Shown: in pieces, positions 4,415-54,607 of the stretch
Position numbering within the stretch: the first letter of the stretch is position 1
How the letters are laid out: each line of letters opens with the position of its first letter
Assembly (NCBI GenBank): GCA_029204225.1
Contig: CM055103.1
Location: 43,658,604-43,722,603, forward strand
Reading direction: 5' to 3'
Source of the DNA: Diphasiastrum complanatum
Taxonomy: Eukaryota > Streptophyta > Lycopodiopsida > Lycopodiales > Lycopodiaceae
DNA length: 64,000 nt
Program-made: the position numbers and the translations under genes
Notes under the pieces: generated by a model
The model's input: only the letters and a program-made list of their open reading frames with translations
What the model was told of the DNA's origin: nothing
The model's database searches: none

Positions 4415-6600
4415 TGCTGGAAAGAGGTCTGTAGAAGATAGGTCGAGATTCGAAAAGAATTCGAACAAATAAAATTCGAATGAAAAGAATTCGAACGACA
4501 AGAAAAAAAAACCTTATCGTGCACAGCGAAATAAACTATCTTCCTCTTTCTTCATGCATGACCACGCCTATTAATTTCGAACAAAACAATAGTGATAGAA
4601 ATCACATTCGATCTTATAGTAACTAGCTTTGAGATCATCAATACTACAGTGATTACGTAGCCAAACAATAATGCATTGAATTATCAGACAAATAATTAGT
4701 CGCAAAAAACTATAGAAATGCATACATTCTGAGACAAACTTGAATGCAATAAAAGATAGTATTGATTCAGTATGAAAGCGAAACAAAAGTAAATGAGTAC
4801 AACTTGTTGCGGATCAAAGCCACATACTCTAAGCTATCTCTGAGTGGCTAAAATGAGAGTCTGAATTAAGCACAATGCTGATAAGTAGTAAGCGCAATAA
4901 CAATCTCTAAACAACTCTAAGAAGTGAGCTAGAATGCTCAGGAGTGTTCAAGCTCGCAGGCTTGAGAGAGAGAGAGAGAGCTAACTATTCAATGTTTGCT
5001 GATCTATTGATCACAACTTCAATGCTTAAAATGTAGGAAAATGAGCAGCGATTTATACTAAGCTACGGCAACATCCAATAGTAGGACGACTAATTACGTC
5101 GTCAATCATAATGGATAGTAAGCTGGCATCCATCCAGTTGAATCTTCCCGAAAATTCAGTAGCTTCAATTAAGGCAAACAATAAATTTTCTTTGCCTTGA
5201 CAAGGTATTTGTCAAACCATGCCCGAACGTTTATAAGTCGGATCCACCTGTGAGTGATTCCCGAGAACGGATGGAGATGGTAGCAACGATGGAAATGTGG
5301 TCTCGATGGGTGGATGGAGATGGTTGCGAAGTGATGCGATGGGAGGGTAGGTGTTGCGATGGTATGCAATTGGTGTAATGGAGTGTTGTTAGTTGTGGTG
5401 GTGAGGAACTGCTTCTGTCTAGAATGGATAGAATTGCATCGGTTGAGATGTGAAGCAGATCTCGTCAGTGGAGATCTGAGCGACTTCCTTCGGTTGAGAT
5501 CTAACTGATGGGCGTCGGTCGAGATTCCAAAGAAGCGCATCGGTTGAGATTTAAGAAAAGCGCTTCGATTGAGATTTGATGCAATACCGTCGGTTGAGAT
5601 GTGAGAGTAGGTCATTGGTTGAGATTTGACTGAAGGGTCGTCGGTCTAGATGGTCATCGATTGAGAGCTAATGTAGGACCGTCGGTCCAGATGGTCGTCG
5701 GTTGAGATCTAACATAGGACCGTTGGTCGAGATGGTTGTCGGTTGAGATCTAACGTAGGGCCGTCGGTCCAGATGGTCGTCGGTTGAGATCTAATGTAGG
5801 ACCGTCGGTTGAGATGGTCATCGATTGAGATCTAACGTAGGGCCATCGGTTGAGATCTAACGTAGGACCGTCGATCGAGATGGTCGTTGATTGAGATCTA
5901 ACGTAGGGCCGTCGGTCCAGATGGTTGTCGGTTGAGATCTAACATAGGACCGTCGGTCGAGATGGTCGTCGGTTGAGATCTAACGTAGGGCCGTCGGTCG
6001 AGATGGTCGTCAGTTGAGATCTAACGTAGGACCGTCGGTCCAGATGGTCGTCAGTTGAGATCTAACGTAGGGCCGTCGGTCCAGATGGTCGTCGGTTGAG
6101 ATCTAACGTAGGGCCGTCGGTCCAGATGGTCGTCGGTTGAGATCTAACGTAGGGCCGTCGGTCCAGATGGTCGTCGATTGAGATCTAACGTAGGGCCGTC
6201 GGTCCAGATGGTCGTCGATTGAGATCTAACGTAGGACCGTCGGTCCAGATGGTCATCGGTTGAGATCTAACGTAGGGCCGTCGGTCCAGATGGTCGTTGG
6301 TTGAGATCTAACGTAGGGCCGTTGGTCTAGATGGTCGTCGATTGAGATTTGAGCGAAAACCGTCGGTCGAGATTTCAATAGATTGCGTCGGTCAAGATGT
6401 AACGGATGACCGTCGGTTGAGATCTGAGAGAGAGTGTGTCGGTTGAGATGCGATAGAATACGTCGGTTGAGATTGGACACGAGCTCTATGGTTGAGATTT
6501 CAACACAGGGGGGGCTCCGGTTGAGATGTGATTGTGAGGGGACGGGCGGAGCATGGACAAGGTTGCGGGTTTCTAATGTAGAAGGTGTTGAAGTTCAATG
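4415..6600 (-). mobile_element. Minus-strand LTR (5' LTR) with U3 minisatellite; start not resolved
   Basis: The low-coordinate end is fixed by the CA terminus abutting the primer site at 4404-4414. A TATA-like motif (TATAAAT on the minus strand) sits at about 5052-5058, the expected place for a U3/R boundary. A large tandem-repeat block lies upstream of it at about 5440-6535. The high-coordinate end is not seen, so the limit of 6600 is an estimate. The layout (terminus, TATA, then tandem repeats in U3) resembles the 1.4-kb LTRs at 47555-48999 and 56700-58089, whose U3 repeats share a CGGTTGA core. Confidence 0.45.
5441..6535. repeat. Minisatellite with 25-bp and derived 41-bp units
   Basis: From 5621 to 6343 the sequence repeats with a 41-bp period: about 17 long units and one 25-bp unit. 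Each long unit is a 25-bp segment (starting GAGATCTAACG, ending CGTCGGTC) plus a 16-bp segment (CAGATGGTCGTCGGTT). The flanks, about 5441-5620 and 6344-6535, hold diverged pure 25-bp units that all start with GAGAT and mostly end CGGTT. The 41-bp unit therefore looks like a 25-bp unit plus a partial copy, later amplified in the middle of the array. Neither period is a multiple of three, so the minus-strand ORFs across it are not genuine. Confidence 0.9.
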
Positions 6601-16700: not shown

Positions 16701-18060
16701 CAAAAATGTGGTGTGAAGAAGAAGATGAACGTGTTAAGGGTGAAGTACCACAAGAAAATGGTGTGCAAAAAAGACTTTCACCTCAACTAAAAGAGAAAAT
16801 TGACACATTCATATTATATAATTGTGGACAAATGGAAAAGTGGATTTCAAGGTATGAAGAAGCCAAAAAGGAAGAAACAAAGAAGAAACATCAATCGAAG
16901 AAGAAGGAGGGCGTTGGAGAATGACGAACCTTTGGAGCCTTTATCTTCAAAATGCTCTCGTGAATGGATTTTTGATACGATGCTAAAAGCATTCAAAAAT
17001 GGAGAAGAAGTGACCGAATTAGAATGGGAATTTGTTCGCAGATGTGGATGGAAGGTTAGTGTAATATTGTTTTTGTGAAGTTTTGTTTTTGTACTACTCA
17101 ATATATGAATAGTATTTCTAATTACACACATTTGTTTTTTTTTTTTTTTGTGTTTTAGTATACATCATACACTGCCATGTGGGCATATGGACACCATTAC
17201 CATGTTGAGAGAGTTGACAACAAGCGACGTACATATGATTGTGGTATAATGGCCAACTTTCAACAAGAGAGTCGTTCTAGTGAGGGACCCTAATGTCATT
17301 TTGGACGACCTAGACTATGTCGGCACATTGCAACATATTTATGAAGTTGATTACGAGACTAATGGCAAATACTTTATTTTTGACGTAAAATGCTTTAAGG
17401 TCATCATCGTGGAAGCAATGCCACGATTAGAAATGATAACTCAAAGTTTTTTCAAATCGACTCAAAAAAATGTATATTGATGGACTCTCATGACACTTTA
17501 GTGTTCCCACGACATTGCGAACAAGTGAGACTCTAAAAATTTAATGTCATTAATATTCGTAATCCAATTATTTATGTTTCAATCTATTAAGACTAACTTA
17601 ATTTTTTTTAATTCTTTGGCAGATTATATTCCATCCAGATCGAATAGACCCAAGATGGTGGTATGTGATCCAACTTAATGCAAGAAAACGACGTGTGTTT
17701 GAAGGAAAAGATATTGTTGAGCTGGATACACATGACGAACCACCACCCAATTTTGGCGACGCTTTGGAAGAACCTGAACAACTCATCCAAACTCCAAATG
17801 ATGTCGAAATGATGGGAGAAGAAGGTCCAAATGGAAATGATGAGATTCCTACGATCGTACAAGGCCAAATTGGGGGTAATTTGAAGCCCCCACGTTTGAA
17901 TGAGATAGAATTAGAAGAAGAGGAGATTGAATATGAGGGTAGCTCACATCATCAAAGAGATACGATCGGAAATTTACGATTATACCTAGACCTAGATTCA
18001 GATGAGTGTCAAGACTTGTGTGATGACAAAAATGATGTAAATGATGAGAATGATCTATGA
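13800..18060 (+). pseudogene. TNP2-like CACTA transposase (TNPD-type), multi-exon, decayed
   Basis: Domain order from 5' to 3' is as follows. A transposase-associated Cys-containing domain (IWCTCLKCDGQKMRERR at about 13997) follows an exon start at about 13971. Then come the acidic linker, the Transposase_21 core at about 14726-15480 (CPEDHVLYR; CPMCNASRF; NLRFGLAMDGVNPF), and SIKHLLDPMHIFKNV near 15855. The DUF4218-like block is at 16390-16560 (LLERDFPTSFLDIQVHLLVHL), and DUF4216 is at about 17280-17700 (YFIFDVKCFKVI; RIDPRWWYVIQL). A long acidic tail ends at the stop at 18058-18060. Donor and acceptor sites such as GTAAGT at 13872 support introns. In-frame stops near 14322, 15033, 15283, 15638, 16054 and 16551, plus small frame changes, mean it cannot encode full transposase. 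Confidence 0.8.
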
Positions 18061-18700
18061 TTATCTATCATTTTTTTTTATCGCAATAGTTTTTAGGTAT
18101 ACTTTTATAGATAGAGTTGAATGTGATAATTATAATACCCGAACCTTGCGGTTATGTCCTATTTCAGAATGTCACCACATATTCCCTACCTGCGGCGTGT
18201 AGGTTTTTCCATGCAAGTTGGAAAGATTAGAACCTTGCCTTTAACGGGAGAAAAGTAAGGGCTACACACCTTCCTAGGATTGGGGATTTTAATTATCTAC
18301 ATTTCACCTTTGCATATTAATTAATTGCTAGTGTAAGAGGTAAAATATGATATTGCTTTGAACAAAATGAAAATTATGAATAACATTAAATTTCTCACTA
18401 TGTTAGATAACGTATTCTAATAATAAAACAAATTAAAACAACATAAACTCACCAGTAAACTCACTCGAAGCTTAAGTGCAAACGTGCAATTGCTTGCTCT
18501 TTAAATGCTTGCTCTCTTTTTTTGAATATTTTTGTCACATGCACAAGCAATTAAAAAATAACACTATATTACACAATTGAACCATTATTACAAACAAATT
18601 CAAACATACAATTACCATCAAACACTATCTAGTCATCTACTACTCTATCAAACACTATTTATTTATCTATCCACTCTTAAATACCCTAAACTAATGCATA
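18061..18700. other. CACTA interior without a gene
   Basis: AT-rich sequence between the transposase stop and the microsatellite block. A phrase with GAACCTTGC motifs near 18145 and 18231 repeats loosely. Nothing else is seen. Confidence 0.4.
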
Positions 18701-19850
<1,150 letters not shown>

Positions 19851-20059
19851 ACTCTCTATCTCTTCTTAAAACAAACAAACAAACACCAACCTCAAACAAA
19901 CAAACAAAAATCAAGCACCAACCTCAAACAATGATCTTCAAGCACTGATCTTGAAGCACCCTCAAGCATTGATCTTCAAGCCCTCAAGCACTGGTCTTCA
20001 ATCGCCCTCAATCGCTCCAAAGACGCTCCAACCTGCAAAAAAACAAAGTGAGAGAGAAG

Positions 20060-23100: not shown

Positions 23101-23868
23101 AAGGAGTTCTTTACTTCTTTGGTCACTTATGATGGAGCCAAGAAAGCAATTCACATGGCCAGATTGGCCAGCTGTTCTATGAGTGTGGCATTCCATTTGC
23201 GGTTGCAAACACTTGGATCTTTATGTCTCTCTCTTATTCTTGCATGTATTCCTAGGCTCTTAACCTGTGTGACACACCATCAACAATAATCAAATAAAGA
23301 TTATCTATTTGTATCACAAAATCAGTTCATGAAAAAATTTTATATGCACACATTTTGAATCGGAGTTCAATCCTTGAGGTAAGAAAATGAAACACTCACC
23401 ATTATGCCACAGTTCCAAGACAACTAGGATTTGAAAACAGCTAAATTACCTTGCATCCAATCATAGGCAATGACATTTTTGCTCAAGGAATTTGTGGCAA
23501 TGCCTTTGTGGTATACCACAATGTTCTTGTTTTTGGTCTTTCTTCATAAAGTCGACTCGGGCTGCTTCAAACTTGCTGCCGAGCTTTCTTGAACTTTCTA
23601 GTATTGTTTTAGGGGTGGGTATTTGGGAAACATATAGCACTTAAAAGATGCTTTGAAAAGGTGCTTAAAAAATAATACAAATTCCAGATTGTCTACGGAG
23701 TTTTCCACAACCCAAAATGCCATCGCTTGAATCCCAGTTTCCCTTATCATTGGTCCCTTGCCAAGGCCTATCGTGGATCTAAAGTCTTTATCCACTTGGT
23801 ACATATATGCACTACTATGTTGACACAACGATGAAAGCAAAAAACTCGAACTTTTATACGATCTAAAG

Positions 23869-23876
<8 letters not shown>
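23101..23876. other. Stretch without a recognisable gene
   Basis: Short ORFs on both strands show no recognisable domain. No repeat is seen until the (GT)n tract at about 23877-23924. Confidence 0.4.

Positions 23877-23935
<59 letters not shown>
23877..23935. repeat. (GT)n tract followed by short GTAT repeats
   Basis: An uninterrupted (GT) run at about 23877-23924 grades into TATG repeats directly beside the first Helitron-like mini-element. Confidence 0.9.
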
Positions 23936-23938
<3 letters not shown>

Positions 23939-24142
23939 AGTATAAAACTATTTTAGAGAGAGAATATGTGAGGTGCCGTAAAAAATATCACGCTTTGCCG
24001 GCAAAAAATGTCACCCATTTGCAAAAGGAAAAGCTAAATAGGTTTTAAAAAATTGGTAAAAAAAATACAGCCTCCAAAAATATATAAACACTTTTTGTGG
24101 GTAAATGCCCATTGCCCGTCATCGATGGGCACAAGCAACTAA
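23936..24142 (+). mobile_element. Helitron-like mini-element 1 (uninterrupted)
   Basis: About 207 bp, from TATAGTATAAAACTATTTT to a 3' end with a hairpin (stem 24113-24120 with 24124-24131, loop ATC), seven bases, then CTAA at 24139-24142 followed by T. A 3' hairpin followed by CTRR and insertion before T are the signature of Helitron ends. No protein is encoded. A second copy starts at 24163 in the same orientation. The 5' terminus is obscured by the adjoining GTAT repeats. This copy is the empty site for the insertion in copy 2. Confidence 0.6.
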
Positions 24143-24356
24143 TATATATATATATTTATATATCCATATAGTATAAAACTATTTTGGAGAGAGAATGTGT
24201 GAGGTGCCGTAAAAATGTCATGCTTTTGCCAGCAAAAATGTCACGCTTTGTCGACAAAAAATGTCACCCATTTTCAAAAGGAAAAACTAAATATGTTCCC
24301 ACAATTTTGAAAAAATTGTAGTCCACCAATTTGCGCTTGACACGGAAATGGTGTAC

Positions 24357-24540
24357 ACACCACTGGCCAGTATGTGCACGACATTTGTCTCGCCACATCA
24401 ACATGTTTCAACACACGTGTCTAAGTTTTTTGTAAGCACACCACCGGCCAGTATGTGTCAGCACACCACCGGCCAGTATGTGCACGACATGTGTCTCACC
24501 ACATCAGCATGTTTCAACACATGCTGCACGACACATGTCT
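24357..24540 (+). repeat. Iteron-like repeats upstream of the HUH gene
   Basis: The word ACACCACCGGCCAGTATGTG (or a one-base variant) occurs at about 24358, 24438 and 24461. The first and last copies continue with CACGACATGTGTCTC, then CACATCAGCATGTTTCAACA. Two long copies and one short copy lie head-to-tail. Unit B has two matching long copies at about 27845-28010. Direct repeats just upstream of a Rep gene are typical binding sites for HUH initiators. Binding here is inferred. Confidence 0.6.
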
Positions 24541-24576
24541 AGTTTTTTTGTCAGCCATACTGACACGTGTCCGACA

Positions 24577-24636
24577 GAGGGTATGGCCCACATCTGGCTA
24601 TGCATTGTCACGTTGCAACATGTGTCAATTGGGCCA

Positions 24637-24643
<7 letters not shown>
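24577..24643. promoter_or_regulatory. Perfect 14-bp inverted repeat, candidate Rep recognition or origin hairpin
   Basis: GAGGGTATGGCCCA at 24577-24590 is exactly complementary to TGGGCCATACCCTC at 24630-24643, with a 39-base loop. The (CT)n tract begins immediately after it. Unit B keeps the structure (27733-27797) with about one mismatch. Confidence 0.65.

Positions 24644-24716
<73 letters not shown>
24644..24716 (+). repeat. (CT)n tract in the HUH gene 5' region
   Basis: An uninterrupted CT run between the inverted repeat and the coding region. Units B and C carry longer, interrupted versions at the same place. Confidence 0.95.
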
Positions 24717-24719
<3 letters not shown>

Positions 24720-24803
24720 TCTGTGTTTCCTATCTTTCTATGCATGTTCTATGTCTTTGTCTCTGATTTGAACTACTCTGTCAAAACATTTTCTTTCTTC
24801 TGA

Positions 24804-25778
24804 ATGCAGAATACACATATGGACGCCGGAAGCACATCCAAACATCCAGGTCGTGGGCGTGGGAGGCCACCATCGAAGGTGAATTCGCCAAACATGAAGT
24901 ATCTGGAACTTAGCATCACCGTTGGCTGTGGAGGGGGTGACGTTGACGTTCGCTTGCTACCTTTGCTGCAACAATTTCTGACAGATAAATGTGTAGCTGG
25001 GGTGTGTGCTTTGGAGAGGGGAGGCACACTGCTGCACTTGCATTTTCAAATGACATGTCGAATCATGGCCACCAGTGCCAAAACCGTGAACTTGCAGATT
25101 AAGCACCAGTTGGGTTGGGATGTGCAAGCACCAACAGGAGCTCTGGTCATGTGCAAGACACTCACACAGAAGGGTTTGCATACATTCCATGGTATGGTAG
25201 GCTATTGTTTGAAGGATTTCGGAAAGTCTCATTTCCAAGTTGCATTGCACAATGTTAAAACTGACGATCTCGAGCTTGGGAAAGAGCTTTATGCGAAGTT
25301 GGGATCTTCTGAAGTGAAGAACAGAGTCTGCTTGACTCCGTGCAACGTGTTTGAAAGGGCGTTCATGTACAATCTGTTTTATGGAAAGCGCTACTTGGGC
25401 CAATTTTTCGTAGCTTGTTTGTTGTCGATGTTAAGAACCGCAAAGTATTTTCCTTCTGCAGCTTGGGTTACACCTTCAAAAGGTCTTGGTATGGATGTAG
25501 AGCGAGCAGCATCAGTGTGGCGGGCGATGTTGGTTCCTAGCTTGGTAACGCTGGAAGATGTTCATAACATCTTCTTTGCAAGACAACATGCACATGGACG
25601 ATACTTTGGAGCAAGAACACGAAGCATTGATCATAGCATTCACAGTGCAAATCCAAATGCAAACACGCTGACTGATACGTCCACACCAGAGACGCCTCTC
25701 TCACCACTTGTTGATGAAGACGCTACATATATCCATGTCGATCATGACGTCATCGATAGGAAAACTGTCTTCGGATAG
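24804..25778 (+). CDS. AT-hook plus single-tyrosine HUH endonuclease (Rep-like), 324 aa
   Basis: Likely nicks and joins single-stranded element DNA during replicative transposition. Residues 17-25 (RGRGRPPSK) form an AT-hook. Residues 32-43 (KYLELSITVGCG) sit where Rep motif I is expected. Residues 78-82 (HLHFQ) are the metal-binding HUH motif, preceded by ERGGTL as in many Rep proteins. Residues 133-138 (GYCLKD) are a YxxK catalytic-tyrosine motif with one Tyr (Y134), 54 residues after HUH. No Walker A/B or helicase segment is present, unlike Helitron Rep/helicases of over 1000 residues. The C-terminal 120 residues are unfamiliar, ending in a Ser/Thr/Asp-rich tail. A TGCAG splice-like site overlaps the first codons, so translation may instead start at Met 6 (24819). 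The broken copy in unit B keeps both motifs. Best guess: a Replitron-type Rep. A captured CRESS-virus-like Rep is less likely. Confidence 0.75.
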   Translation: MQNTHMDAGSTSKHPGRGRGRPPSKVNSPNMKYLELSITVGCGGGDVDVRLLPLLQQFLTDKCVAGVCALERGGTLLHLHFQMTCRIMATSAKTVNLQIKHQLGWDVQAPTGALVMCKTLTQKGLHTFHGMVGYCLKDFGKSHFQVALHNVKTDDLELGKELYAKLGSSEVKNRVCLTPCNVFERAFMYNLFYGKRYLGQFFVACLLSMLRTAKYFPSAAWVTPSKGLGMDVERAASVWRAMLVPSLVTLEDVHNIFFARQHAHGRYFGARTRSIDHSIHSANPNANTLTDTSTPETPLSPLVDEDATYIHVDHDVIDRKTVFG

Positions 25779-26127
25779 TGATCTTCTGTTGTTGTATTTA
25801 TGTACATAGTCTGTGTACGGATGCATGTTCCAGCTTTGTTTGCCTTTTAGGTTGAGCTATCTATTGTCACAGAGTACGCTCAAAAACGTTTATGCATCCT
25901 TCAAATGCTACTCCAGCAGTTTTGTAAATATAAATACAACGAGCAACCTTACTCTTCTTCTGTGTGCTCCGTATTCTTAGCTAATAATTGGCATTTTGCT
26001 GCATTTCTTTTTTTGGTTTTATTTTTCAGTTAACCAGTAATTATGCATGAATTTTCCCTGCAAAACCAGCTTCCCAACGATCTACTATATGCTTCGATTC
26101 AGCATGTTTGTGCGCACGTATGATTTT
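25779..26127 (+). other. 3' region of HUH unit A
   Basis: Non-coding sequence conserved in all three units near its end: TTAACCAGTAATTATGCATG, then CGATCTACTATATGCTTCG, CATGTTTGTGCGCACG and TATGATTTT. It contains the palindrome GTGCGCAC. In unit C the gene is missing and this region follows the 5' leader directly, so it is likely required in cis. Confidence 0.6.
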
Positions 26128-26164
26128 CAAAATTGTGGAAATATATTGGCTTAAAATATTTCAA
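26128..26164. other. Centre of the HUH-unit palindrome
   Basis: This 37-bp spacer separates the inverted arms. On the minus strand it reads as the terminal sequence of unit B (GAAATATTTTAAGCCAATA) followed by the first 20 or so bases of another unit start, ending inside the start hairpin. It then switches into the reverse complement of unit A's 3' end. GAAATAT and ATATTTC within it can pair. Confidence 0.6.
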
Positions 26165-26509
26165 AAAATCATACGTGTGCACAAACATGTTGAATCAAAG
26201 CATATAGTAGATCGTAAGCTAATTTTGCAAGGAAAATTCATGCAGAATTACTGGTTAACTGAAAAATAAAACCAAAAAAAGAAATGCAGCAAAATTTCAA
26301 TTATTAGCTAAAATACGGAGCACACAGAAGAAGAGCAAGGTTGCTTGTTGTATTTATATTTACAAAACTGCTGGAGTAGCATTTGAAGGATGCATAAACG
26401 TTTTTGAGCGTACTTTGTGACAATAGATAGCTCAACCTAAAAGGCAAACAAAGCTGGAACATGCATCCGTACACAAACTATGTACATAAATACAACAACA
26501 GAAGATCAC

Positions 26510-27367
26510 TATCCGAAGAATCAGTCGGCGTGTTTGCATTCGGATTTGCACTGTGAATGCTATGATCAATGCTTCGTTTTCTTGCTCCAAAGTATCATCC
26601 ACGTGCATGTTGTCTTGCAAAGAAGATGTTATAAACATCTTCCAGCGTTACCATGCCAGGAACCAACATCGCCCGTCACACTGATGTTGCTCGCTCTACA
26701 TCCATACCAAGACCTTTTGAAGGTGTAACCCAAGCCGCATAAGAAAAATACTTTGTGGTTCTTAACATTGACAACAGACAAGCTACGAAAGATTGACCCA
26801 AGTAGCGCTTTCCATAGAACAGGTTGTACATGAACGCCCTTTCAAACACATTGCATGGAGTCAAGCAGACTCTGTTCTTCACTTCAGCAGATCTCAGCTT
26901 CACATAAAGTTCTTTCCCAAGCTCAAGATCGTCAGTTTTAACATTGTGCACTGCAACTTGGAAATGAGACTTTTCGAAATCCTTCAAACAGTAGCCTACC
27001 ATACCATGAAATGTATGCAAACCCTTCTGTGTGAATGTCTTGCACATGACCAACTGGTGCTTAATCTGCAAGTTCACGGTTTTGGCACTGGTGGCCATGA
27101 TCGACATGTCATTTGAAAATGCAGGTGCAGTAGTGTGCCTCCCCTCTCCAAAGCACACACCCCAGCTACACATTTATCTGTCAGAAACTGTTGCAGCAAA
27201 GGTAGCGAGTGAACGTCGACGTCACTCCCTCCACAGCCAACGATGATGCTAAGTTCCAGATACTTCATGTTTGGCGAATTCATCTTTTTCACCTTCGATG
27301 GTGGCCTGCCACGCCCACGACCTGGATGTTTGGATGTGCTTTCGGCGTCCATATGTGTATTCTGCAT
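26510..27367 (-). pseudogene. Broken HUH endonuclease gene of unit B
   Basis: It matches the unit A protein and retains the AT-hook (RGRGRPPSK), HLHFQ and GYCLKD. It is inactivated by a one-base frameshift just after the HUH motif (about 27108), a deletion of roughly ten codons before the tyrosine motif, a Trp-to-stop change at the start of the C-terminal third (about 26677), and a deletion of about 90 bp near the 3' end. It has four extra bases-worth of Lys/Met codons after the AT-hook. The encoded fragments cannot form one protein. Confidence 0.8.
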
Positions 27368-27439
27368 TCAGAAGAAAGAAAATGTTTTGACAGAGCAGTT
27401 CAAATCAGAGACAGAGACATAGAACATGCATAGAAAGAC

Positions 27440-27461
27440 AGGAAACACAGACAAAGGGGGG

Positions 27462-27547
<86 letters not shown>

Positions 27548-27660
27548 ACAGCGAGCAGCAGAGAAGGCAGACAGAGCGTAGTAGCAACAGCAACCCAGGG
27601 GAGCAAGAGGAGACAGAGGGAGAGAGAGCGCGCGCCAACCAAAGGCAACAGCCTAGGGGG

Positions 27661-27735
<75 letters not shown>
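27440..27735. repeat. (GA)n arrays of unit B with GC-richer spacer
   Basis: Arrays at about 27464-27542 and 27661-27733 flank a spacer rich in GCAGCAG and GGAGCAAG words. The same spacer type recurs in unit C. The LSLSLS reading frames are artefacts. Confidence 0.9.
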
Positions 27736-27737
<2 letters not shown>

Positions 27738-28064
27738 GGACCAATTGATATATGTTGCAACGTGACAATGCATGGCCAGATGTGGGCCATACCCTCTGCC
27801 GGACACATGTCAATATGGTTGACAAAAAATTTAGACACGTGTCGCACAGCATGTGTTGAAACATGCTGATGTGGCGAGACACATGTCGTGCACATACTGG
27901 CCGGTGGTGTGCTGACAAAAAATTTAGACGTGTCGCGCAACATGTGTTGAAACATGCTGATGTGGCAAGACAGATGTCATGCACATACTGGCCAGTGGTG
28001 TGTACACCGTCTCCGTGTCAAGCGCAAATTGGTGGACTACAATTTTTTCAAAATTGTGAGAACA

Positions 28065-28606
<542 letters not shown>

Positions 28607-28611
<5 letters not shown>
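28607..28611 (+). repeat. 5-bp target duplication AAATA of the HUH cluster (other copy 24289-24293)
   Basis: Mini-element 1 reads CTAAATAGG at 24034-24042. In mini-element 2 the sequence is CTAAATA before the insert and AAATAGG after it, so AAATA is duplicated around 24294-28606. Confidence 0.6.
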
Positions 28612-28713
28612 GGTTTTTAAAAAATGGTAAAAAAAACACAACCTCCAAAATTATATAAACACTTTTTGTGGGTAAGTGCCCATTGCTCGTCATCGACGAG
28701 CACAACCAACTAG

Positions 28714-28735
28714 TATATGTGTGTGTGTGTGTCTA

Positions 28736-28823
<88 letters not shown>
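28714..28823. repeat. (GT)n then (GA)n microsatellite
   Basis: A GT-rich run from about 28718 to 28750 passes into (GA)n to about 28823, just outside mini-element 2. Confidence 0.9.
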
Positions 28824-28827
<4 letters not shown>

Positions 28828-29084
28828 GAATATATCCAATTTCACAAATTTGATTTGAGAAGTTAGTGATGTCATAAGGTAAAGCTTAGAAAAAACATAT
28901 ATGCAACCAAAAAGTAAAGATTAGGCCAGAACTAGATTTCATTACCATATATAAAATAATTTGTCCTTCAAGCTTCAACTCTTGCTTAAATAATTTGCAT
29001 ATTCTTTCTAGGCCATGACTATGCAGGACATGATTTTTTCTTCAAGTATTTCCAAGAAACTTGAATTTTTTTTAGCATTCCATA

Positions 29085-29203
29085 CTAGGTTCCGTATTAT
29101 GCTTCTTGGTTTCCAAGGGGAGGCTTGAACCTGAGACCAAAGAAACTTTGGATGTCAAGCTAACCAACTGAGCCAACCCCGTTGGGCTAGGTTCCGTATT
29201 ATG
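29085..29203 (-). mobile_element. tRNA-like short insertion (SINE head or retro-tRNA) with 17-bp target duplication
   Basis: Read on the minus strand, 29186-29102 contains an A-box-like GGCTCAGTTGGTTAGC and a B-box-like GGTCTCAGGTTCAAGCC in tRNA spacing. It is flanked by identical 17-bp copies of CTAGGTTCCGTATTATG (29085-29101 and 29187-29203). The 85-bp insert ends in AACCAAGAAG without a long A tail. A duplication of this length implies LINE-type insertion. The acceptor stem does not pair well, so it is not a functional tRNA. Confidence 0.75.
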
Positions 29204-29641
29204 GAACACCCGGAATGCATAGGGTTTAGCAGATGCAACTTAAGTAAGATACGCATCTATTTCTATATTCTGATCCAAAAGACTTTGATTTAGCAAGTTA
29301 CTCAGGAGCAAAAGAGATACCCTGGTGCATTTATTCATAGAAAAAACTAGTAGGAGCAAAAGAGGATGCTCGGTCCTCGAGAAGTCAAATTAAGAAATGA
29401 CAGTGCATAATAAGATTCTTGGAACTACTAAAAAAGGTAAACTGAAAACACTTATGCAAACCAGGAGTACATTTCCAGATCCTGATATTCAGGCCTTTGT
29501 AATTCATTCAACTACAAAGGGCTCCAATCTTTCTCTCCCTCGTACAATTGAATCTGGCTCATCAACCCAAACAAATTATCAAAAAGCGATTGATAGATGA
29601 GATTGCCTTGGTGGTCGATACTATATCCATCCAACTCAGTA

Positions 29642-30335
29642 CTACATCCATGCAACTGTTTTGAGCACTTGAAGAAGGTTATTGGCGGCAGCAAGCCCAC
29701 TGAGAATGGCACATTCAACACGAGGACCTAAACAATAATCACCACAAGCTACAATTCTTTTTTCTTCAACTAGGATGCATTTCTCCTCTGGTGCAACAAA
29801 TTTAGTTGGAAAAGCACCTCCCCTGTGATCACATAAATTACATTTCTTGCTTGAAACCCGGAAACCTTGAAGCAGGATGAAGCATCATTCTGAAGAAGAG
29901 CATTGATAATCGCATATGCTTCAATTGAGCAATGGGATTGACTATAAGCAAATGGTGAATTGCAAACACAAAATCCTCAAAGGAAGGTACAAAGATCCCA
30001 TTTTCACATTCTATCTTTTGATAGAACCTAAAAAGTGATTAAGCTTACCAGCGGTGCGCCTTGATGAAACAGGGGTCAGGAAGACCAGGGATCACATTTT
30101 GAAACTCTTCAAGTAAATCAAGTGCAATAGAAGCCAATAACTCCTCAGACGGCTTAACCAAGCCCGCTCTGCTGATTACAGTTTCTGCATATTCCACAGT
30201 TGAATGCAGCACCCAACATTCACTGCAGCAAACACATAAATTTCAAAGTAACCCACTAAATAAACTTTATTTCTGATTATGCTATATGCAGGTGTGTAAA
30301 CGTAATCTAATGTCAACAACTACGGACCACTTAGC

Positions 30336-30422
<87 letters not shown>

Positions 30423-32074
30423 CGTTGAAAAATCTTTGTACATATCGCCAACAACCTATCTCCTGTGCTATCCACTTTTCTTTATAAGGTTGTCGTCACT
30501 GGCTCCCCATACTCCTCGTGTACCAACATCATACACATGAATGGTGACCCCACAAAACCCAAGAACTACCGCACTCTCATGATTGGGCATATTTTAGCTA
30601 AGTTTTAAGGGACGACCTTACAGAGTGATGAGCCGTATGATTGAGCCCACAATGTTACATGCTATGGGTCAGGCTGACTTTGGGACTCATCATTCCCATC
30701 TGATTACATTTTCACTCTCAAATCCATCATCAAGGAAGCTAGATCTAGGAAAGAGGTCTTTTCTTGCTTTGCTGACGTCAAGAAAGTCTTCGACTCAGTG
30801 TCATGTCACATGCTTATCAATAGAGAGACCTTGGTTTCTCCACAGATACCATACTAGCAGTCATGGCAGTTTATGAAAGAGTTATGGGTTGCTTCAAGAT
30901 AGATGAGGGGATATCTGAGCAAGTGCATAGCACTATTAGGATTGAACAAGGTTGTTCTCCTTCACCCACACTATTTGGACTATATATTGATGAGTTGGAA
31001 ATGGTGGACAAAGCTGAAGGTTATGCGAAAAATTAATATCTATCCTAGTTTATGCAAATGATGCGATTTTGGTATCCCCGACCAAAGAAGGATTAAAGAG
31101 ACACTTGATAAGTTTATAGACTTTTTGCACTAGATGATGTTTGAAAGTTAATACCAAGAAGACCAAGATCATGGTCTTTAGAGGGTGTCCAACGCCCACC
31201 TCCATCATCATTTTTAGTCTATTTATAGCCTATTTCTCAAATTTGTTTGGAGGTTGTCTAGTGTTCATCTCCACCATTTTTTTTTGTAGCATTTGCAACC
31301 TATTTACAGTCCAATTTCAGATCCGGTTTGAAGCTGCCCTAGCACCCACCTCGATTACCACTTTCAGAGGTATCTGTTGGTTATACATTTTTTCTCATTA
31401 CTCTTTTCATATGTGCCGGTTTTTATATTTCCTTTGCTACTTTTAGTGTTGATTGCCTTAAGCATATTTGGGGTGACGACAAAAGTCCGCTCTCTCTGAT
31501 ATTAAGCTTTTTGTACATCTTTACTTTTTGCATCTTTTCATGGAGCTTCTCCCTCATCTTCCGAGGTTCATCTCCCTTCTTCCACTTACCTTGATGAGGT
31601 GCGCCATGAGTTTCGAGATCACCTACACGAAGCCATGAGTGATGTGCACAGCGATTTACACCTTGAATTACGAGAGACATTCACTACTCTCTCCACCCAG
31701 ATTGCTTCGCTTTCCTTGCAGTCCAGTTTCGCTCCACCATCACCTATTCCACCTATGGCATTTCCCTTCTTATATTTTCCAAGATTGATGTTCAGCGCAT
31801 CCACTTGGCTGCTCTACATCTGGAGGGCCGTGCCGCTACTTGGTGGCGTACGTTTCAGCAGATGACTAGTTGGACAGAGTTTATGACAGCCCTCCGCCTT
31901 GCTATGATCAATGGCTTATTCAACAACACAACGTTTTTTGTAGCCTCACCCACATTGGTGATTTGGCTACTTACCCGACAGCTCTCCTACCTTTTTTCTA
32001 GATATTTCTACATTGGAGCTCATTTTCCACTATGTTGCAGGCTTACGAAGAGCACTCAGCTATGACATTTCTTC

Positions 32075-32126
<52 letters not shown>

Positions 32127-35100
32127 CCATCTCCCTCGCCACCGCTTTGCAACATAAGTATTTTTCCGTGTCATCTTTTGCACGTCCTAAATCCAGTGGC
32201 AGAATACTATTGCATGCGAACTCAACCATTAGGAGGTACTTTTTCCAATCTGACTATCATCTAGAAACATATGCATGAAGCATATCTTCCATTGACTGGT
32301 TGACACGTTCGGTCTACTCACCGAATTCTAGGTGATCCGATGACGAGAGAATTAAGGTAGTTTCCAGTCTTTCAAAGACTGCCTGCCAGAACTTGTCAGC
32401 GAAATTAGAATCACGATCACTAACAATATCGTTCGGCAAACCATACAACCCGAACAACTTTTCAACGAAGAGTTGTGCAAGTTCCGAAGCTTTGACATTA
32501 GTTTTTGTTGGAATAAGCTGGGCCATTTTGGTTAGCTTGTCAACTACTACCCAAATGGCATCGTGACCCTTCCCTAACTTGGGAAGTCCAATCACAAAAT
32601 CCATGGAAATACTTTCCAACTTCTTACTAGGAGTATCCAATGGATGCAACAGACCAGCTGCTTTGATTCTTCCCACTTTATTAACTTGGCATTGTTCACA
32701 CTTTTGAACGTATGCCTCCACATGGCCTTTCATCTTTGGCCAATAAAATTCTCTTTTAACAAGGTCAAGTATACTTTGTATACCAAGATGTCCCGCACTA
32801 GGACTATTGTGACACTCGTGCAGGATTTGGGCCCTAATGCCCACGATGTCTAGCACACACACTTCTCCTCTAAAGAAAAGTAAACCATTCCTAATGGAAT
32901 AATCAGCTGGTGTCTTCTCTTCACGAGACTTCTTGGAATCCTGTTTTCCAAGATTATCTCTCAAAGTAGAGCTTCTTGCTAGGACTTCTTGCCAACTGTG
33001 ACCAAAAAACTCATCGGTCCGACAAAGGTCTCACTGAGAAAAATACAACTTAGATTGGAATTCAGCAAAAAATAACTGATTAACCTCTCCAATCTGGCTC
33101 AAAGCATCAGTGACACAATTTGACGTTGATGAACCAAACGTGTTTCAAACGCGTTTGGAACGTGGGTTTTAGCAAGGCCAAAAATCCCCAGAATCGAAAT
33201 CAAACTCCTGAATGAGTTCTGACCAACGGGACTTATGACCCCTAAGGTCTGAGGCATCACAATTAGACTTAAGAGATTCGTGATCCGTCATAACCACAAA
33301 TTTAGATCCGTACAAATAATGTCTCCAGATCTTTAACGCGTGGATGACAACAAAAGGTTTCTTCTCATAAATAGAGTACCTACTTTGAGCTGGGTCCAAC
33401 TTCTTGCTTTTGAAAGCCACTGGTCTACCATCTTGGTAAAGTACTGGACCCACTGCATAATTAACTAGCATCTGTTTCCACCAAGAAAGGTATGATAGGG
33501 TCCACTATGAGTAAGATAGGGGCGGTAGACACTAACAACTTCAAAGCTTCAAAGCTTTGACTTAATTCATCAGTCCAAACAAGTGAACTGAATTTCGAAC
33601 GCCTTCCGGCTTTCTTCTGATTATCCTTTTTAGTTTTACTTTTGGCTTTCTTCACTCCCTCAAGAAAATTCGTTAAAGGTAATGCAACTAAGGCATAGTC
33701 TTTAATGCCTCGGTTCTCCCTAGCATATATCTCCTGGCTTGTAGATACATCTTGGCAATTGCACGAGCTCTCCATCCACCAACTCTTGGGTAGACTGAGT
33801 GAATGACAAAAGGGAAGTTGTTAGGGACCCAACCCCCTTGGGTCCCAAACCCAGACTTGAGACTGGACGATGACTGGGCCTGTAGACTTGACCGGTGACT
33901 CATGAACCTGTATGGTTGCCACGTGTCATGATCCAGGAGTGCACATGGCTTGGAGTCTCTCTCCTTGGAGGTATACAAGGGGAGGAGGACTCATTTGCCA
34001 TCCATTTTGTCTACCTAGGAGGAGGTGGATGGAGAGCGTGTGCACGGCCAGGATGTATTGCTAGCGTGAGGCAGGAGATGTCTGAGAGCCTAGGCGGTGG
34101 TATGGGACGCCATCTGGGATGGAGGTCGGATCCAGCTTGATAGGGTCACAGGCCAGGGCACGGTGGGTGCACCCGAATTAGGTCCTATGGCGGGGTGGAA
34201 CGTGAATCGTTCAGTCTGTTGTGGTTAACCGACACCTGGAGGTTTGCAGTAAGTGAGATTGTAACAGAAGCCCCACCACTATATAGACATAGCATAGTTG
34301 GTCCCATCAAGCCCATTCCCGCCTGCTGAGAAATCTGGTAAATGTGGAAAGTCCGGGATGATGGACGAACAACGATTTCCTCAGTGCCATACACTGCGCA
34401 TGATCACGCAGGTATGCACAAGAATCATTTGAGTTGCGGAAGCGAAGAGCAAACAAGAGAAAGCGAAGCATGCACATGACATTAATGTGAATGTTGATGA
34501 TACATTGACAATGTATCTACTAAGTCCATAAAAGACATGGAGATAGTAAAGAAGCAAATATCCTCTATATTCGAAATTGCAAATATGGGAGAAGCCAAAG
34601 TTTACCTTGGTGTGCAAATTGAAAAAGAAAACTCTAATTATTTCCTAGATCAATCTCTCTATATTTCAAAGCTTTTTGACAGGTTTGACATGCAGGATTG
34701 CAAAGCGAATATGGTTCCTATGCCTACAGGAACCATATTATCAAAGGATGATTGTCCTACAACTGAAGAGGAAAATAAGCAGATGCCCCTCATTCCCTAT
34801 CAACATCTTATTGAATATATTTAGCAACATGGACTAGACTTGAAATAGCTTTTCCAGTTTTCAGCCTTAGCCAATTCTAATCCAGGTTTGAAACATTGAA
34901 AATTAGCACAACATGTTTTGAAATATCTCAAGCATACTATAAACTATGGATTTCATTTTTCCCATGACAAAAGCATACACGTAATCACCTATACAGATGC
35001 AAGCTGGATGTCCAGGAAGGATGATTCAAAGAGCATCTCTGGATGTATTTGTCTAGTTGCAGGTGCTGCTATTTCATGGGTATGCAAAAAGCAATCAATT

Positions 35101-51452: not shown

Positions 51453-52733
51453 ATGTCTTCATCTGGTTCACATTTCTTGGAGCATAGTGAGAAATTAACA
51501 TCTTCCAATTATGCAATGTGGAAGATTAGAATGGAATCATTATTGATTCTATAGGATGTAATGGACATTGCAAGTGGAGCTGAAGAAGAACCTGCAGCAC
51601 CTAATGAAGCTGCAACATTCAATAAAAGAATCAGAAATGCTCTTCATTTCATAAAAATGAATGTCACAAATGAAGTGTTAAGAGAGATTAGTACATGCAC
51701 CACTGCCAATGAGGCTTGGGACACTCTCAAAACAATCTATGAAATTAAGAATACTTCTAGATTGCTTACACTTAGAAATCAAATCTTTCTAAGTTATCAG
51801 AGAGTAGATGAGAGTGCTTCATCTTATGTAATGAGAGTAAAGGATCTTCATCAAGAGTTAGCTGGTATTGTTGATGCTCTTAAGAACACTGAACTTGTTC
51901 AAGTAGTCCTTAATGGACTTAGAGATGAGTATGACAATATTGTGCAGACTTATGCTGTCAGGGAGGAACTTCCATCCTTGGAGACACTTAAAGGTGTTCT
52001 CATTGCTGAAGAAAGCAGGCAAGAGAACAAGATGCTGAGGATCAACAAACTTTCATTGAAGGATGGTGGAGATGACAAAGCACTCTTCATTAAGGACAAG
52101 TCAAGAGGCAAGGGCAAAGGTCAACAACACTTCAAGAAGGACAAAGCCAAAGAAAGTAGTGAGGATCAACCCTCACAAGTTGCAACATCCAGTGGCAAGA
52201 AGAAGCTATCAAAGATCAAATATTTCTTTTGTGGCAAGAAGGGCCACTATGCATCAAACTGTTTCAAGAAGAAGGACCAATCCAAGCAAGCTAGCCTTAC
52301 TAATGAGGATGAGTGTGAGGGTATTAAGAGTGAAAGAGAGGATTCTTTAATGATGTCTAGTTTTTCATCTTTTCCTTTCAAGAATGAAGAAATCTGGTGG
52401 ATAGATAGTGGGGCTAGTTCCCATATGTCTAGTTCTAGAAACTCTTTCACAAGTCTCATGCCATATCTAGGTGCAAAAAGATCAATCTATACTGCTAATG
52501 ATGTAGACTGTAGAATTGAAGGAATAGGTAGTATTCCACTGCATGCATCATCATCAAAATATTTTTGTTTGCGTGATGTACTTTATGTATCTAGACTAAC
52601 CAAGAATCTCATTAGTGTAGGACAATTGCTTGATAGTGGATTGGATGTCAAGTTTCATGTTGAGAAATGTATAATCTCAAGAGAAAATGAAGTTATTGCT
52701 AGAGGATCTAGAATTGGAAAGTCTTACAAATAG
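51453..52733 (+). pseudogene. Inner copia gag and protease
   Basis: Gag starts at 51453 (MSSSGSHFLEHSEKLTSSNY), has one in-frame stop at about 51540, and then continues open to 52733. Blocks include NEAWDTLKTIYEIKNTSRL and a CCHC zinc knuckle (CGKKGHYASNCFKK, with the first Cys replaced by FFCG context). The protease (WWIDSGASSHMSSSRNSF) has the DSG catalytic triplet, followed by LRDVLYVSRLTKNLISVGQL. This is a nearly intact gag-protease stretch compared with the rest of the element. Confidence 0.85.
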
Positions 52734-53625
52734 GGAGAGTGCTAACATTTCAGATATTGCTTATGAGACCAAGGTTCATCAGGAGGATCTGTGGCATAAG
52801 AGATTGGGACATCCCAATTTCAAAGCCATGCAGTCTATGGTCAAGGAAGGAAAAGTTGTTGGACTACCAAAGACACTGTCAAAAGGAGCTTCAACCTTGT
52901 GAAGCTTGTGTTTTGGCAAAATCACATAGAAGACCTTTTCCAAGATCAAGTATCAAAACACAACAACCATTTGAACTCGTACACTCTGATGTTCATTTCT
53001 CTTTAACCAAAAGCAAAGGAGGAGTAAATTGCTTTGTTTCTTTTTGAGATGATTATACAAGATATTCTTGGATCTATATGCTATCTTCTAAAGCCATGGT
53101 TTATGATGTTTTCCTTATTTTCAAAGCTTATGTAGAATAGCAAGTTACTTTCAAGTTGAAAGCTTTGAGAAGTGATAGTGGAGGTGAATATACCTCTAAC
53201 AAGTTTAAAGACTTTTGTGAGAAAGAGGGAATACAAAGAGAATTTTCCTCTTCTTATACTCCTCAGCAAAATGGAGTTGCTGAGAGAGAAAATAGAACTT
53301 TGTACGAATGTGCAAAAGCCATTAGGCTAGAAGCATCTCTACCTAAAGAGTTTTGGGGAGAAGCAGTTGCATGTGCAAATTATCTTTGTAATAGACTTCC
53401 TAATCTTGCAATAGAAGGAAGAACACCATTTGAGATGTTGTATAAGAAAAAGCCTAAGGTAGATCATCTTAGGGTCTTTGGTTGTTTATGCTATGTGCAT
53501 GTACCTTTAGAGCCTAGGAAGAAGGATGATCCTAGTGATGTTAAAGGAATTTTTGTTGGATATGCTTTTTTTAAGAAAGCATACAAAGTTATCTTCCCTC
53601 TACTGACAAGAATGTTTTAAGTAGA
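52734..53625 (+). pseudogene. Inner copia GAG-pre-integrase and integrase
   Basis: The GAG-pre-integrase block (LWHKRLGHPNFKAMQ) is followed by a one-base frame change near 52890 and CEACVLAKSHRRPFPRS. The integrase core has DDYTRYSWIYML, then a stop, RSDSGGEYTSNKFKDFCEKE and YTPQQNGVAERENRT. LRVFGCLCYVHVP and GIFVGY complete it. Catalytic D, D and E positions are visible. Stops at 53046 and near 53138 and a frameshift near 53590 inactivate it. Confidence 0.85.
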
Positions 53626-54607
53626 GATGTGATCTTTCATGAAGATCAGAAGTTTAACTTGGATGAAGCAAAGATCAAGGAGTCTCATGCAAGATCTACA
53701 ATCATCAATCTTGATGATATTCAAGAAGTTGTGAGGCTGAGGCTTGAGGAGGAGCAACTTCAAGCACCTACACCAAGAAGATCCACAAGAGAAAGATCCG
53801 AGCCAAGAAGGTTCACTTATGATGAGGGAGGAAGGAAAGTGGAAGGTGAAACTTCCTATTATGCATTCTTCATATCAAATGAAGAGCCTAAAGATGTCCA
53901 AGAAGCACTTCAACCCTTGAGTTTGAGGCCTTGATGTCAAACAACACATGGGAGCTTGTGGAGCCACCAAGCAACATGCATGTCATTGGATGTAAGTGGG
54001 TATTCAGGATCAAGTACAACAATGATGGATCCATCAACAAATACAAGACTTTGTGACAAAGGCTACTTTCAGATCAAAGGTCTTGACTATGAAGACACTT
54101 TTTCACCAGTTGCAAAAATGGTCAGACAGATTGGATAGGAAATCCACAAGTGCTTACACAAATTTTCTTGGAGGGAATCTAGTTTCTTGGCTATCAAAGG
54201 AACAAGCAACTATATCCTTATCATCCTGTGAAGCTGAGTACAAATCTCTTACAACTACAACAAAGGAGGTTTTATGGATCAAAAGGCTACTCTTGGAGCT
54301 CAAGTGTTATGGAGATGGAGACCTTCCAATTATCAAGAATGATAACATCTTCGCTCAGGCTCTTGCAAACAATCCTGTGTTCCATGCAAGGAGCAAACAC
54401 ATCGAGGTAGATCATCATTTTGTAAGAAAAAAAGTTATTGGGAGAGATATCTTATTGGAGGATGTTGGATCTTCAATTTGTGTTGCAGATCTTCTCACCA
54501 AGCCATTGCTCAAGAATGTTTTTATCAAGATGAGGTCTAACCTTGGCCTAATTTCAAAGTCTATGTTGGATAGGAACATATATTTTAAGGAGGAGTGTGA
54601 AGATTAG
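53626..54607 (+). pseudogene. Inner copia RT (mostly deleted) and RNase H
   Basis: 53629-53934 is the linker with PRRSTRERSEPRRFTYD. The RT begins (WELVEPPSNMHVIGCKWVFR, then a frameshift and DYEDTFSPVAKM) and then jumps at about 54125 straight into RNase H (STSAYTNFLGGNLVSWLSKE; SSCEAEYKSLTTTTKEVLWI; RSKHIEVDHHFVRKKV; VADLLTKPL). The whole RT catalytic core including the YVDD box is deleted, so the element cannot copy itself. Confidence 0.85.

Follow-up and report, generated by a model that had tools for sequence, protein, structure and literature searches.

Which kind of mobile element encodes the protein read from the uninterrupted frame at 24804-25778 of the window (the whole stretch of 64,000 nucleotides (nt) of DNA that was analysed), and how did the related copies beside it come to lie there? 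Here we report that the frame is very probably the gene of a single-tyrosine HUH endonuclease, the transposase of a ~1.9-kb Replitron whose host would be a non-seed plant, probably a lycophyte. Replitron transposons were reportedly described by Craig in PNAS in 2023. The gene has the following position:

24804-25778, plus strand: probable Replitron transposase gene of copy 1, intact, 324 amino acids, ATG start, no internal stop

The 324 codons exceed what chance would give, since 300 mononucleotide shuffles of 23801-27000 gave, over all six frames, a longest ATG-started frame of 76 codons in the median and 163 at most. The translation contains an AT-hook-like motif, RGRGRPPSK (residues 17-25, core GRGRP), the sequence HLHFQ (residues 78-82), which holds H78 and H80 of the HUH motif, and GYCLKD (residues 133-138), in which Y134 is the single tyrosine, within YCLK. 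As the first ATG falls within a splice-acceptor-like TTCTTCTGAATGCAG near 24808, translation may instead begin at M6, with every motif still included. Judged by its sequence, the Replitron is autonomous.

Two Replitron-specific Pfam families match the protein, namely Replitron_HUH (PF21859; residues 46-163, expectation value (E) 2.3e-16, 60.7 bits versus a cut-off of 28.5) and Replitron_C (PF21860; residues 205-258, E 7.1e-11, 42.8 bits versus a cut-off of 27), and because both match, the frame was identified as a Replitron protein. A Pfam scan with E up to 10 found no helicase family in it. A preliminary description of the locus had claimed the uninterrupted frame, the three motifs at these residues and the lack of a helicase, all of which are borne out by the frame listing, the translation and the Pfam scan, respectively. 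Its tentative assignment to Replitrons is supported by the two Pfam matches, but its suggestion of a new lineage is not, since Pfam places the protein in both existing Replitron families. The group was already known and the window element adds another member, although the protein may form a subfamily of its own. The AT-hook was upheld only in part: the GRGRP core is visible by eye, but the Pfam family AT_hook scored 11.2 bits, below its curated cut-off of 17.4, and the core is missing from the single relative described below. Searches of the PHROGs families, of PDB sequences using an alignment, of Rfam at gathering scores and for tRNAs yielded no matches.

The relative, a protein of 325 amino acids from the lycophyte Diphasiastrum complanatum that is recorded as hypothetical, was the single match with E up to 10 in a search of ~5.8 billion proteins that scored 1720 candidates; it shows 51% identity with 82% of the query covered. 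A profile search from the two-sequence alignment returned nothing beyond the same protein. Both searches are limited to proteins of suitable length with exact 5-residue words in common, and distant Replitrons may therefore well be missed. The relative also matches Replitron_HUH and Replitron_C in Pfam and has kept LLHLHFQM, so that both histidines are kept, but reads GRCLKD versus GYCLKD in the window protein, with an arginine at the position of the catalytic tyrosine. Judged from these residues, it may be a dead copy. The conservation of the histidines and the tyrosine among homologues, which the preliminary description had made a test, thus holds for both histidines in the one database homologue and for all three codons in a second copy in the window, but Tyr134 was found in none of one homologue. 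Catalysis by H78, H80 and Y134 of the window protein is predicted, as expected from the HUH/Rep superfamily.

The transposase gene lies within an inverted pair of 3.8 kb, in the arm opposite a decayed copy; a BLAST search of 23501-29500 against the window placed 24290-26127 in inverted relation to 26163-28068. Together with a third remnant, the pair forms a cluster with the following parts:

24298-26123, plus strand: copy 1, putative 5' end at CCCACAATTTTG, 3' end truncated at the palindrome centre
26148-28060, minus strand: copy 2, inverted and tail-to-tail with copy 1, ~1.9 kb between putative ends, gene broken
26676-27173, minus strand: longest listed frame of copy 2, 165 amino acids (164 residues scanned, Replitron_HUH at E 8.2e-8)
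28069-28606, minus strand: copy 3, head-to-tail with copy 2, a remnant that lacks both a gene and a 5' end but has a closely matching 3' end (28069-28192)

In reverse complement, copy 2 can be aligned to copy 1 from AATATGTTC-CACAATTTTG through a common 3' region. Deletions have removed 1 nt, 33 nt and, in the largest case, 82 nt (91 nt by another alignment) from copy 2, which also carries a 9-nt insertion and two stops when read in the frame of copy 1, while the codons for His, His, Tyr and RGRGRP are undamaged. The 3' end of copy 3 (28045-28192) is 88% like 26124-26266, and its leader, largely a CT repeat, is 67% like that of copy 2. A tblastn search of the window with the window protein found copies 1 and 2 only (three matches, E up to 1). 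The preliminary description was right about the gene itself but overlooked the inverted and tandem copies beside it, and this cluster is the more unusual part of the locus.

The ends and junctions of the copies are marked by the following sequences:

24300-24313, plus strand: 14-nt element-end repeat CACAATTTTGAAAA, 5' end of copy 1
28045-28058, minus strand: the same 14-nt repeat, junction of copies 3 and 2
26124-26137, minus strand: the same 14-nt repeat, past the 3' end of copy 2, palindrome centre
28061-28068, minus strand: 8-mer AATATGTT, between copies 3 and 2
26140-26147, minus strand: 8-mer AATATATT, past the 3' end of copy 2
24289-24297, plus strand: left half of a candidate target duplication, AAATATGTT
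28607-28615, plus strand: right half of the candidate target duplication, AAATAGGTT
23936-24166, plus strand: unit A, an uninterrupted relative of the host repeat

The 14-mer occurs three times in the window, each time at a putative end or junction, and from this one cluster we infer the element ends to be CCCACAATTTTG...TTTTAAGCC. No terminal inverted repeats of the element were seen by eye. The 8-mers that precede the 14-mer are AATATGTT at the 5' end of copy 1 and between copies 3 and 2, and AATATATT at the palindrome centre. The first occurs four times in the window (both strands), twice within the cluster, and the second six times; by themselves the 8-mers are weak evidence, and the weight lies on the adjoining 14-mer and the match to the host repeat. 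A second unit of that repeat is apparently split by the cluster (left part 24167-24297, right part 28607-28718): the left flank is like unit A through AAATATGTT, and the same repeat picks up at AAATAGGTT on the right flank. These two sequences at the cluster edges overlap by 9 nt, of which 8 of 9 are identical, and the overlap looks like a target duplication enclosing the whole cluster. At the palindrome centre, copy 1 breaks off at TTTT. These letters coincide with the end of the opposite-strand 14-mer, and we infer that the joint formed where 4 nt were shared.

At the element end (24301-24319), ACAATTTT-GAA-AAAATTGT forms a perfect inverted repeat of 8 bp, but shuffled sequences fold just as stably as DNA (z -0.32), and a functional hairpin is therefore not claimed. 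The strong folds at the palindrome centre (z -9.7 and -7.6) merely reflect the palindrome arms. The flanking host repeat, which may itself be another element, contains a hairpin at 24075-24160 and 28640-28710 (left copy, z -2.5).

Between copies 1 and 2, identity rises from 88.6% over the 325 sites of the 5' part to 94.7% over the 850 sites of the gene and 96.2% over the 340 sites of the 3' part. Over 284 codons, nonsynonymous (dN) and synonymous (dS) divergence were 0.051 and 0.133, a ratio of 0.39 (Fisher p 0.0013 for the difference, with rounded counts), which suggests past purifying selection on the transposase protein. At the 29 amino-acid differences, the D. complanatum relative shares the state of copy 1 at 13, that of copy 2 at 2 and that of neither at 14. 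Two of the 13 are stops of copy 2, and one is among six differences at 289-297 that border the large deletion and are perhaps misaligned; when these three sites are dropped, the relative favours copy 1 by 10 to 2. The simplest reading of these sequences is that copy 1 stems from a line of working elements and copy 2 has decayed.

The apparent constraint on the substitutions and the intactness of copy 1 beside a decayed partner would also suit a domesticated host gene, that is, a former Replitron protein retained by the plant for a DNA-binding role, and the tyrosine-less relative is recorded as a hypothetical gene product. Copy 1, however, still lies inside an element with repeat-bearing ends, adjoined by two further copies, and has kept H78, H80 and Y134, so that domestication is very unlikely.

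The predicted secondary structure of the window protein, which runs strand-helix-strand-strand(HUH)-helix-strand-helix(Tyr), follows the order seen in Rep HUH domains and lends the HUH endonuclease reading some support. In this order, and in its HUH and YxxK motifs, the protein resembles the Reps of circoviruses and geminiviruses. In Foldseek comparisons of the HUH part with the PDB, the best match of the low-confidence model was the papillomavirus E1 DNA-binding domain (E 7.5e-3), with circovirus, geminivirus and pMV158 Rep among the best 50; against a viral library, 12 of the 50 matches listed were named, and all 12 were Rep, parvovirus NS or papillomavirus E1/helicase proteins. Rep-like structures come first when Foldseek is given the HUH part, whereas with the whole protein, or in VIA-align, they do not, again with low-confidence models. 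The HUH fold proposed in the preliminary description is therefore favoured by the order of strands and helices and by the Foldseek matches of the HUH part but not by the other comparisons, and the modelled fold leans weakly Rep-like. An origin as an endogenous fragment of a circular Rep-encoding single-stranded (CRESS) DNA virus or plasmid Rep would suit the viral Rep structures among the nearest named matches, but is even less likely than domestication: the Pfam families that match are the Replitron-specific HUH and C-terminal ones, and two peptide patterns yielded no relative in IMG/VR viral contigs (0 from 186 pattern matches). In CRESS virus Reps, the HUH domain is followed by a Superfamily 3 helicase domain; the window protein has no helicase family and Replitron_C in its place, and a virus-derived Rep was rejected on this domain content.

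Near-palindromes are a known fault of long-read assemblies, but a fold-back read as the source of the inverted pair, which would leave the gene a Replitron all the same, is most improbable and was rejected because the arms have diverged (to the identities given above, with several indels), unlike those of such a read. Helitrons are likewise eukaryotic HUH transposons, but were rejected on domain content, the window protein being far smaller (324 amino acids), with one tyrosine in the YxxK position and neither a helicase nor a Rep-helicase fusion.

The gene, its domains, the copy geometry and the junction letters are observed; the activity of the Replitron, by analogy with the HUH/Rep superfamily, would be expected to run as follows. 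H78 and H80 would coordinate a divalent metal, and Y134 would attack one strand at the putative element end and remain covalently bound to the 5' phosphate. A host helicase and polymerase are invoked to displace or copy the strand because the protein carries none. Strand transfer would then join the single-stranded end to a short AT-rich target, giving a short duplication, and the AT-hook may assist in holding the AT-rich ends.

The cluster may have arisen by independent insertions, by recombination or as a replication product. Copies 2 and 3 stand in tandem, separated by the 14-mer and a target-like 8-mer, as would suit either read-through beyond the element end or repeated insertion at the same site. 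Rolling-hairpin replication is used by parvoviral HUH Reps. By analogy, the tail-to-tail pair might be a Replitron replication product, made when the 3' end of the displaced strand folded back and served as primer for its own copying, whereupon the palindromic dimer integrated with one target duplication; we consider this improbable. For two copies of which one is dead, the dN/dS ratio is low, and part of the divergence may therefore predate the meeting of the copies, which would count against a fold-back origin, although the data are few.

A passage of a review (PMC10741241) gives Replitrons short direct terminal repeats of 5-11 nt, no terminal inverted repeats, target duplications of 2-8 nt and lengths of 0.9-4 kb. 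Within the scope of that passage, the window element agrees in the ~1.9 kb between the putative ends of copy 2. Its putative direct end repeat, the lack of terminal inverted repeats by eye and its candidate short target duplication may also be in keeping, but the end repeat is 14 nt long. The element also shares with Replitrons the Replitron HUH and C-terminal domains without a helicase and, likely, a non-seed-plant host. The N-terminal AT-hook-like motif, absent from the single relative, sets the window element apart, as does the combination of a tail-to-tail pair and a head-to-tail remnant in one cluster, in comparison with Replitrons as they are known here from the review passage and Pfam.

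Elsewhere in the window, a tandem array lies at 5610-6348, with a unit of 41 nt that reaches 12.3 copies where the array is best preserved, and long CT microsatellite arrays lie at 18790-19863 (longest row 447 bases, 80% matches), where the GC skew is -0.67 (18001-20000). On the minus strand at 29642-30242 are two exon-like frames, one holding GDYCLGPRVECAILSGLAAANNLL and the other CWVLHSTVEYAETVI, which resemble a plant renalase-type oxidoreductase dependent on flavin or nicotinamide adenine dinucleotide (FAD/NAD); neither piece matched Pfam. Frames at 30678-31036 (plus strand) look like a reverse transcriptase remnant of a long interspersed nuclear element (LINE), the piece at 30824-31033 having no Pfam match. 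A retrotransposon integrase fragment lies at 32314-32964 (minus strand; Integrase_H2C2, with rve under its cut-off), and Copia-type retrotransposon remains at 51561-54607 (plus strand) include an open gag frame of 390 amino acids (51561-52733) that matches Retrotran_gag_2 and Pol_BBD in Pfam and has its best relative in D. complanatum (51% identity over 60% of the query). As the Replitron protein has its best hit in the same species, the host may well be a lycophyte.

Replitrons were named in 2023, and the word occurs in 3 papers of a searched open library of 5.39 million. With a transposase that is intact and apparently under constraint, copy 1 is a candidate for biochemical testing in land plants, and the readable junctions of inverted and tandem copies give specific predictions on end recognition and strand transfer in a eukaryotic HUH transposon without a helicase. 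The arrangement of the copies may also hint at how Replitrons move; if the tail-to-tail pair were indeed a replication product, Replitrons would possess a hairpin route besides simple transfer.
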